Shown here one piece after another: positions 13,358 to 15,967 of a DNA stretch of 41,362 bases. The translations under genes and the position numbers were made by a program. Origin of the DNA: Chloroflexota bacterium (GTDB taxonomy: Bacteria > Chloroflexota > Limnocylindria > QHBO01); assembly GCA_013816405.1 (NCBI GenBank), contig JACDEL010000018.1, forward strand, positions 1 to 41,362, given 5' to 3'. The stretch's first letter is position 1; every line of letters begins with the position of its first letter. The notes below the pieces were generated by a model. The model did not search any database. It was given only the letters and a program-made list of their open reading frames with translations, and was not told where the DNA came from.

Positions 13358-14143
13358 ATGAGCCAGACTGACGCCGACGAGGAGGGCTGGCGCGGCGCGT
13401 TGAGCGAGCCGGGGTTCGCACCGCAGGCGCGCATCTTCAAGTGGCTGCCGTCCAACCCTCGCTGTCCCCTCTGCCAGGCCCCGTACGGCCTGCCGTTCGG
13501 GCCGATCGTCCATCTCCTGGGATTCGGCCGCTCGAAGCGATATCCGCAGCTCTGCAACCCGTGCTTCAGGCAGATGGAGCGCTATCGCGGTGGGGCCGAG
13601 GTGGAGGTCACAGTCCTCTTCGCCGATGTCCGCGGCTCGACCGGAATGGCCGAGCGATCTTCCGCGTCCGAGTTCAACCTGCTCCTCAGCCGCTTCTACG
13701 CGCTGGTCACCCAGGCGGTGCGCGATGAGGGCGGGATCATCGACAAGTTTCTCGGCGACGGCGTCATGGCGCTCTTCATCCCGTCGTTCACCGAGAAACG
13801 GCACGCCCAGCACGGGCTGAACGCCGCCAGGCGGATCCTGCGCGACGCAGAGCTGCCGATCGGGGTCGGGCTGAATACCGGCAAGGCATTCACCGGCTTC
13901 CTCGGCCCCTCGGACGAGGTGGCCGGGTTCAGCGCCGTCGGCGATGCCGTGAACGTCGCCCATCGGCTGGGCGAGGCTGCCGGCCCCGGTGAGCTGTTGG
14001 TGGGAGGGGATGAGCTGAGCTTCGCCGAACCGCCGGCTGCCGATCCTGGTGGGACGTGGGACAAGCGCGAGCTGCAGGTCAAGGGCCGGGACCAGGCGGT
14101 GCGGGCGTGGAGCCTGCAGCTGCAGCGGGAGGCCGTGGCCTGA
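13358..14143 (+). CDS. Class III adenylate/guanylate cyclase domain protein with N-terminal Cys4 (CPLC...CNPC) motif
   Basis: 'VTVLFADVRGSTGMAE', 'IDKFLGDGVMALF', 'FSAVGDAVNVAHRLG'; upstream CPLCQAP...LCNPCFRQM. Confidence 0.9.
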   Translation: MSQTDADEEGWRGALSEPGFAPQARIFKWLPSNPRCPLCQAPYGLPFGPIVHLLGFGRSKRYPQLCNPCFRQMERYRGGAEVEVTVLFADVRGSTGMAERSSASEFNLLLSRFYALVTQAVRDEGGIIDKFLGDGVMALFIPSFTEKRHAQHGLNAARRILRDAELPIGVGLNTGKAFTGFLGPSDEVAGFSAVGDAVNVAHRLGEAAGPGELLVGGDELSFAEPPAADPGGTWDKRELQVKGRDQAVRAWSLQLQREAVA

Positions 14144-14267
14144 CTTCCGGCGGACACGAAGAGTCCCGAAGGAACCGCGGCGACCGTTGATGTAATCTCC
14201 AGTCGGCCAGCTGCCCCTCCGGGACGCCCCTAGCATGGCAGCCGCCGGCGGCGGGGCACAAGGGGGG

Positions 14268-14307
14268 TTATCCACAGTTTCTGGCCGATCGCCCGCAGTT
14301 ATCCACA
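14268..14307 (+). promoter_or_regulatory. Two consensus DnaA boxes (TTATCCACA at 14268-14276 and 14299-14307)
   Basis: Exact match to the 9-mer consensus twice, same orientation, 31 bp start to start; the second lies inside IR GCCGATCGC(14284-14292)/GCGATCGGC(14316-14324). Confidence 0.75.
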
Positions 14308-14338
14308 CGCTGTCCGCGATCGGCGACGCAGCAGCCGG

Positions 14339-15967
14339 TCAACCCCCGATGGCGATCGCCAGAAGGCCCGGCATCGCGTCGACCGAGTCGGCTCGCTTAA
14401 GCGGAATCCATGCCGCCAGGTGCCCGTCGGGTCGAACCAGGTAGGCCGAGGACCCTGCCTCGCCATAGGCTCCCCGTATCTCGCCCTCCGAGTCGACAAG
14501 CGCGGTCACCCCGGCGAGCGGTCCGTCGGCGCCGATGGCGACGATCCTGCATGGCGCCGGCCAGGCCAGCCGAGAGGCGCGAATCGCGGCCATGGCGGCC
14601 TCGCGCGGCGAAGCGACCACAAGGAGCGCCACGAAACCCCTCCCGAACAGCTCCCGGAGGCGCGTCACGTTTGCCTCGTCGAGCGACCTGCACGGGGCAT
14701 CCGGTGCGACGCTGCCTATGGCAGGGATCGGGGCGTCGCGCTCGTCGGCCACCACGATTGGCGAACCGGCGTAGGTGAATGGCTGCGCCAGCCGCCCCGA
14801 GTTGACGAGCCGCCGCAGCTGGGGCAGCCGCAGGCTCCCCCGCAGGATCGCGTTGCGCAGCAGTCGCCGCAGCCGCCCGCGCGGGACCATGAACTTCATG
14901 CTGGCGTCGGTGACCGCCAGGTTCTCGAGCGCGGCCTCACGGCGCTCGGTGTGGAAGCTCTCCAGCAGGTCGTCCGAGGCGCGGCCGACCAGCACTGTGG
15001 CCAGCTTCCAGGCGAGGTTCTCGGCATCGGCCACGCCAGAGTTCAGGCCCCGGGCGCCAAACGGGCTGACGAGGTGCGCCGCGTCACCCGCCAGGAACAC
15101 CCGCCCAATTCGGAAGCGCTCGACCAGGCGCTGGTGAAACCGATACGGCGTGAGCCACAGCAGCTCGTAGTCGGTGGTGGGACCGATCACCGCCCGCACG
15201 CGACGGTCGAGCCCGCCGCTCGTTCGCTCGGCCTCGACATCGGTTCCAGGCGGGACCTGCCAGTCGATGCGCCAGGTGTCGTCCGGCTGGGGATGAATCA
15301 GCACCTGGCGCCCCGGGTTCCAGGGTGGGTCGAAGAAGAATCGTCGCTCGCGCGGGAAGGGCAGCCGGGCCCGGATGTCGCAGATCAGGAACAGGTCCGG
15401 GAAGGAGTGCCCCGGAAAGCCCATCCCGGCGGCGTTCCGCACGGCAGAGTGGGCTCCATCCGTACCGACCAGGTAGGCAACGCGGAGGGTCCTCTCGCCC
15501 GAGGGCGTATCGCAGCGCAGGCTGACTCCACCGGCGTCCTGCGAAATGCCGACCAGGCGATGGCTCCAGCGCAGGTCGACCTCGCGGAGCTCGTTGATGC
15601 GGGCAAGCAGCATCGCCTCGACCTCGGTCTGGTTGATGTTCACGAACGGCGGGAAGTGGTCTCGAGTCGAGCTCGGCAGCCGGACCTGGAAGAGCTCGCG
15701 GCCGCGGAAGTAGGTGCGTCCCAGGTTCCACTGCACCCCGCGCCTCGCCACCTCCTCGCCGATTCCGAGGCGGGCCCAGATCTCGAGCGTCTCGCGCTGC
15801 ATGCAGAGGGCCTTGCTCCCCTCTCCGGTGTGCTGGGGGTGCTGCTCGAGGAGGATGACCCGCACCCCCATCTGCGCCAGCCGCCCGGCCAGGGTCATGC
15901 CGACCGGACCTGCGCCGACGACGGCCACCTGGGCGTCGAAGGTTGGCTCGGGGTCGGAGTGAGCCAT
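14339..15967 (-). CDS. FAD-dependent aromatic-ring monooxygenase (MhpA/PheA/TfdB-like)
   Basis: 'VAVVGAGPVGMTLAGRLAQMGVRVILLEQ', 'GTDGAHSAVRNAAGM', 'GRVFLAGDAAHLVSPFGARGLNSGVADAENLAWKL'. Confidence 0.92.
   Translation of the reverse strand: MAHSDPEPTFDAQVAVVGAGPVGMTLAGRLAQMGVRVILLEQHPQHTGEGSKALCMQRETLEIWARLGIGEEVARRGVQWNLGRTYFRGRELFQVRLPSSTRDHFPPFVNINQTEVEAMLLARINELREVDLRWSHRLVGISQDAGGVSLRCDTPSGERTLRVAYLVGTDGAHSAVRNAAGMGFPGHSFPDLFLICDIRARLPFPRERRFFFDPPWNPGRQVLIHPQPDDTWRIDWQVPPGTDVEAERTSGGLDRRVRAVIGPTTDYELLWLTPYRFHQRLVERFRIGRVFLAGDAAHLVSPFGARGLNSGVADAENLAWKLATVLVGRASDDLLESFHTERREAALENLAVTDASMKFMVPRGRLRRLLRNAILRGSLRLPQLRRLVNSGRLAQPFTYAGSPIVVADERDAPIPAIGSVAPDAPCRSLDEANVTRLRELFGRGFVALLVVASPREAAMAAIRASRLAWPAPCRIVAIGADGPLAGVTALVDSEGEIRGAYGEAGSSAYLVRPDGHLAAWIPLKRADSVDAMPGLLAIAIGG

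Follow-up and report, generated by a model that had tools for sequence, protein, structure and literature searches.

We found that the two DnaA boxes in the non-coding region studied here probably belong to the promoter of a small RNA gene. The simplest reading of the locus is that it is a small RNA gene with a DnaA-controlled promoter and that it is part of a cell-cycle regulon; based on the sequence comparisons below, we consider this reading probable. The window (the whole stretch of DNA analyzed, 41,362 nucleotides) is contig C97 of the host assembly (2.50 Mb, 102 contigs). The genomes with which it was compared are all assemblies, mostly metagenome-derived. Comparing them established an RNA family, the strand on which the RNA is encoded, its promoter, a fixed register of boxes in that promoter, and the occurrence of the same box in the dnaA-dnaN spacer and in several cell-cycle promoters. 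The features of the locus are listed in Table 1.

Table 1. Sequence features predicted at the small RNA locus (positions in the window; promoter positions relative to the RNA start)
Feature	Position	Strand	Description
Small RNA gene	14151..14225	-	63-nt hairpin (14225-14163) with 13-bp outer stem GUCCCGGAGGGGC/GGUUCCUUCGGGAC, then short T-rich tail (UCUUCGU)
Invariant hairpin loop GAGAUUACAUCAA	14187..14199	-	family consensus GAGAUNRCAUCAA
-10 element CATGCT	14232..14237	-	at -12 to -7; family consensus TATnnT
-35 element TTGTGC	14256..14261	-	at -36 to -31
DnaA box 1, TGTGGATAA	14268..14276	-	GTGGATAA core spans -50 to -43, immediately upstream of -35
DnaA box 2, TGTGGATAA	14299..14307	-	core spans -81 to -74; spacing to box 1, 31 bp
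Degenerate third box GCGGACAG	14310..14317	-	at -92, 11 bp beyond box 2; family consensus GTGGA
9-bp inverted repeat	14284..14324	.	arms GCCGATCGC (14284-14292) and GCGATCGGC (14316-14324); probably incidental; left arm not conserved in same genus

The small RNA, its strand and its distribution

A DNA search with positions 14100-14420 gave matches in 24 of 101 genomes (own genome included), mostly from the same family and often with one to three copies per genome. The matched region spans about 14148-14324. The aligned copies share a ~65-nt hairpin followed by a spacer and by boxes at fixed distances, and RNAalifold gave a 13-bp outer stem. Covariance model R1 matches the window at 14151-14227 on the minus strand (86.5 bits). 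Standard pairs make up 97.5% of the pair cells among 94 distinct sequences; 149 cells are double-changed and none of 500 shuffles reaches the observed score, in an alignment that was fitted to the model and leans towards the structure. The outer stem pairs in 1128 of 1150 cells (98.1%) on the minus strand, compared to 925 (80.4%) on the plus strand. Because wobble pairs make the stem pair better on the minus strand, we take this to be the strand of the RNA, and a plus-strand RNA was rejected on the same counts. Inspection by eye revealed no ORF with a conserved start inside the RNA. A search of Rfam 15 gave no credible match above the gathering threshold, and known RNA families were rejected as the identity of this RNA; matches to them were at chance level only. 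Taken together with the promoter described below, the alignments make it very likely that both the RNA and its promoter exist.

It is extremely improbable that the hairpin is merely the terminator of the convergent genes and that the boxes are there by chance. Such a terminator would fit the location of the hairpin between convergent genes and its T-rich tail, but not the invariant loop, the covariation, or the conserved promoter and boxes. In addition, other copies of the RNA are found in other settings, for example divergent to a phosphatase-like gene.

Model R1 matches 125 of the 177 genomes of the host class. There are up to about four copies of the RNA per genome, and the own genome has four, on contigs C97, C80, C17 and C54. 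The broader model R2 was applied to 400 genomes from across the phylum and matched 38, every one of them in families f1 and f3 of the host class; this sample held no credible match elsewhere in Chloroflexota. Occurrence of the RNA in another class, suggested by two f10 genomes at 33 bits, was rejected when these matches were gone under R2. RNA-pattern matches among named records came mostly from Chloroflexi assemblies, including CF_167 (host genus), QHBO01 (family f1) and CSP1-4 (family f3), and single matches scattered outside Chloroflexi were, by rough estimate, about as many as expected by chance. These records place the host class as Candidatus Limnocylindria, for which CSP1-4, P2-11E and QHBO01 are listed as members (PMC10608941), with P2-11E ancestral and Limnocylindraceae genome-reduced (PMC13212565). 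We infer that family f2 is P2-11E and that family f5, with genomes near 1 Mb, is Limnocylindraceae; the RNA is absent from both families. If these assignments hold, the RNA originated after the divergence of P2-11E and disappeared with genome reduction.

In 11 loci the window-type RNA comes after a mannosyltransferase-like gene, and in 8 loci it neighbors a gene for an FAD monooxygenase. The gene with a guanylate/adenylate-cyclase domain at 13358-14143 is found in the own genome only; the rest of this locus is syntenic in relatives. From this comparison the gene seems to have been inserted. A link between the RNA and the cyclase gene was rejected because this gene is absent from the orthologous loci, which retain the mannosyltransferase-like and FAD monooxygenase genes.

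The promoter and the register of its boxes

The first-pass annotation had reported the 9-mer TTATCCACA twice in this region, and both copies are present on the plus strand, 31 bp apart, with no further exact copy in the window. It had also argued that such a pair is unlikely by chance, and our counts agree. We defined a paired box as two copies of GTGGANAA 13-43 bp apart and used the reversed pattern as a control. There are 5 paired boxes in the own genome and 26 over five genomes, and the reversed pattern gave 0 in all five. The 9-mer itself occurs 12 times in 2.50 Mb, compared to 4 times for its reversed pattern. The boxes are kept in relatives, and the 31-bp spacing is common to two families.

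The flanking ORFs converge as described, ending at 14143 (plus strand) and 14339 (minus strand). However, the view that a promoter role is therefore unlikely was not supported: immediately downstream of the boxes, read on the minus strand, there is a conserved promoter with -35 and -10 elements, which faces the unannotated small RNA. In the window this promoter is of the sigma-70 type (TTGTGC / 18 bp / CATGCT), with the RNA start at 14225; its -10 element and the terminator U-tract are both weak. In copies aligned at the hairpin start, TTG at -36 to -34 and a -10 element are present in families f1 and f3, and in f1 the TTG is well conserved (T.96, T.84, G.92).

The boxes hold a fixed position relative to this promoter. 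Of 49 f1 copies, 44 have a G[TG]GGANAA core that begins at exactly -50 and 40 have one that begins at exactly -81, and columns -92 to -88 are conserved in f1 as a weaker third box. The box positions are conserved in f3 as well. The commonest spacings between boxes in these 49 copies are 31 bp (41 times), 11 bp (32 times) and 42 bp (30 times). The same three spacings recur in the 42 copies from f3 (11 bp, 29 times), of which only 5 have no box. Three boxes facing the same way, 31 and 11 bp apart, would lie on about one face of the helix. Both window boxes match TTATNCACA at nine of nine positions. In the family, box 1 frequently has a final G (TTATCCACG) or reads TTCTCCACG, and dnaA-adjacent spacers carry the same variants. 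These variants are weaker by the E. coli rule.

The inverted repeat described earlier is real in the window sequence, but it is not kept even within the genus: the left arm is GACGATCTT in the nearest relative (G002). It is probably incidental because of this difference, on which we also ruled out the repeat, or a cruciform, as a functional unit.

Of the earlier proposal that the site is a datA/DARS-like titration or regulatory locus rather than oriC, one part stands: it appears to be a DnaA-box regulatory locus and not oriC. The dnaA-dnaN spacer, located on a different contig, has the same box and is the putative oriC. The titration or datA/DARS part is not needed, because the boxes sit upstream of a conserved promoter for a predicted small RNA. 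We consider it highly unlikely that the locus serves in DnaA titration or reactivation and has no relation to the nearby RNA. Such a locus could well have two perfect DnaA boxes between convergent genes, in non-coding DNA distant from dnaA, but over 91 copies in two families the boxes hold one register with the -35, the -10 and the RNA start, and the RNA is present in several copies per genome at different loci. E. coli datA and DARS1/2 (PMC4585315) are likewise non-coding clusters of DnaA boxes away from oriC. A locus of the datA/DARS kind would be expected to work without a promoter or transcript, whereas the sites described here are multi-copy and in promoter register, and an RNA is predicted to be made from them.

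Boxes at the dnaA-dnaN spacer and at cell-cycle genes

The recognition helix of DnaA is canonical (GGRDHSTV) in the host and in nearly all relatives. We searched de novo for the commonest 8-mers in the dnaA-dnaN spacers of 29 genomes and found GTGGATAA (21) and GTGGACAA (19). GTGGAYAA occurs 52 times in 7,250 bp of dnaA-dnaN spacer, compared to 0 times in 28 kb of dnaA coding sequence; mononucleotide shuffles of the spacers gave a mean of 0.2 and a largest value of 3. The spacer of the own genome has variant boxes only (TTGTCCACG, TTCTCCACC), which are also seen in RNA promoters. We infer that the dnaA-dnaN spacer is oriC. As the first-pass annotation had said, dnaA and dnaN are absent near the window site; both are on contig C27, and the window site, which neither gene adjoins, was rejected as oriC.

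From these similarities, DnaA is likely to bind the window boxes. It is also plausible that the boxes activate transcription, because they are upstream of the -35 in a class-II-like position. In the mechanism that we favor, DnaA would bind and activate from these boxes, and the transcript from the sigma-70-type promoter would be a hairpin RNA of roughly 75 nt, with its own stem and a T-rich tail at the end. If DnaA binds and activates in this way, then output of the RNA would follow DnaA activity through the cell cycle. It is possible, but unlikely, that the RNA and promoter are real and that the boxes are recognized by some other activator whose site resembles that of DnaA, such as an OmpR-type regulator preferring 11-bp direct repeats. 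Tandem direct repeats of 11 bp do recur upstream of the RNA, and positions 3 and 9 of box 1 in the aligned copies do not follow the strict 9-mer. However, the same octamers, with the same variants, dominate the dnaA-dnaN spacers de novo, and the remaining box sites are at division or replication genes, both of which argue for DnaA.

The 26 paired-box sites in the five genomes comprise 12 RNA promoters, 4 dnaA-dnaN spacers, 4 ftsA-ftsZ spacers and 3 sites that precede a DivIC-like gene; the other 3 are elsewhere. FtsA, FtsZ and DivIC of the own genome were confirmed by Pfam, and their counterparts in relatives were recognized by sequence. The conserved ftsA-ftsZ pairs are at G000:C11:4589-4618 (L272), G002:C4:937380, G004:C26:15681 and G011:C45:29370. 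In the three of these promoters that were read, the boxes are 27-28 bp before a TAGAAT -10. We saw no -35 TTG at ftsZ. The DivIC gene is preceded by a 31-bp box pair (G000:C65:11705-11743; L005, L287), one box of which is inside the promoter spacer, suggesting repression or a different mode of control. Given the missing -35 TTG at ftsZ and the box inside the divIC promoter, regulation may differ in sign between genes.

Single boxes are found 27-30 bp before a -10 at ftsZ, thyX and parA, which is the register of box 1. Those before thyX and parA are at G000:C99:43406-43446 (L010) and G000:C101:8134-8177 (L012), respectively; thyX was named by Pfam (Thy1) and parA from its sequence by eye. There are five such box-before-(-10) sites per genome in the own genome and in G002, and the reversed control gave 0.

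Two other sets of sites were seen in the own genome. Paralogous SnoaL-like genes at G000:C24:2151 and C89:14430 (L003, L007) each have TTATCCACA just upstream of a TTG -35-like element. Similar stretches (TTGACAA...GCACCA.GTTATCCACACTCGCG) are found ~2 kb apart at G000:C16:26622 and 28698 (L001, L002), and could be a duplicated promoter.

In Caulobacter, DnaA has been reported to be a direct activator, and DnaA boxes are in the promoters of gcrA, ftsZ, mipZ and hdaA (PMC3193534). The candidate regulon described here is similar in that DnaA boxes are in cell-cycle promoters, including that of ftsZ. It differs in that paired boxes are found most often at a small RNA family and in that the boxes are in one fixed geometry. 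A small RNA is also connected with DnaA in B. subtilis (PMC12112137). That RNA is antisense, overlaps the dnaA leader and regulates DnaA, whereas the RNA described here is distant and has DnaA boxes in its promoter.

The loop motif and possible functions of the RNA

The loop GAGAUNRCAUCAA is nearly invariant, whereas the stems vary. Some copies have two loops (L046, L097), and long forms with four loops are found in other Chloroflexota records (L152:5452-5600, L162, L174, L209; GAGATNRCATCAA loop). In the full sequences of L152 and L162, the four loops are within the same outer stem and behind the same kind of promoter. We rejected extended antisense pairing between the loop and mRNAs: when no more than one mismatch was allowed, the 13-nt complement was found almost only at the RNA genes, with one other site in the own genome. 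None of the shorter loop matches that were folded was within a comparable hairpin. Because the loop is tandemly repeated and there is no extended complement in the genome, the RNA would act in trans, and the partner of its invariant loop would most likely be a protein or else several RNAs. Protein sequestration is our first guess, and a tentative one. A more elaborate notion, which we hold to be somewhat doubtful, is that DnaA directly drives multi-copy decoy RNAs whose tandem GAGAUNRCAUCAA loops sequester an RNA-binding protein, as a post-transcriptional arm of the cell cycle beside DnaA control of ftsZ, divIC, thyX and parA.

The Csr-type sequestering RNAs CsrB and RsmY (PMC7652899) also have one invariant loop motif, tandem repeats and several gene copies. 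They differ in having repeated GGA in their loops; here the base preceding GAGAU varies (G, C or A), so that GGA is not conserved and not obligatory, and the loop is usually single. The Chloroflexi-1 motif (RF01698, PMC2864571) is, like the RNA described here, a candidate structured RNA from the same phylum. It was described from Chloroflexus aggregans, and the window RNA had no Rfam match at the thresholds used. Our searches of the open-licence literature revealed no earlier description of a small RNA family whose promoter has conserved DnaA boxes.

The RNA family described here would be an addition to what is known of this class of uncultured soil bacteria, which has been little studied. They also offer a testable cell-cycle regulon for uncultured Chloroflexota that comprises oriC, ftsZ, divIC, thyX, parA and the small RNAs. 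Judging from the shared boxes, the protein that starts replication probably turns on cell-division genes and, in addition, a small RNA. If this is true, then the output of DnaA in these bacteria includes small RNAs, and replication initiation would be coupled to post-transcriptional control.
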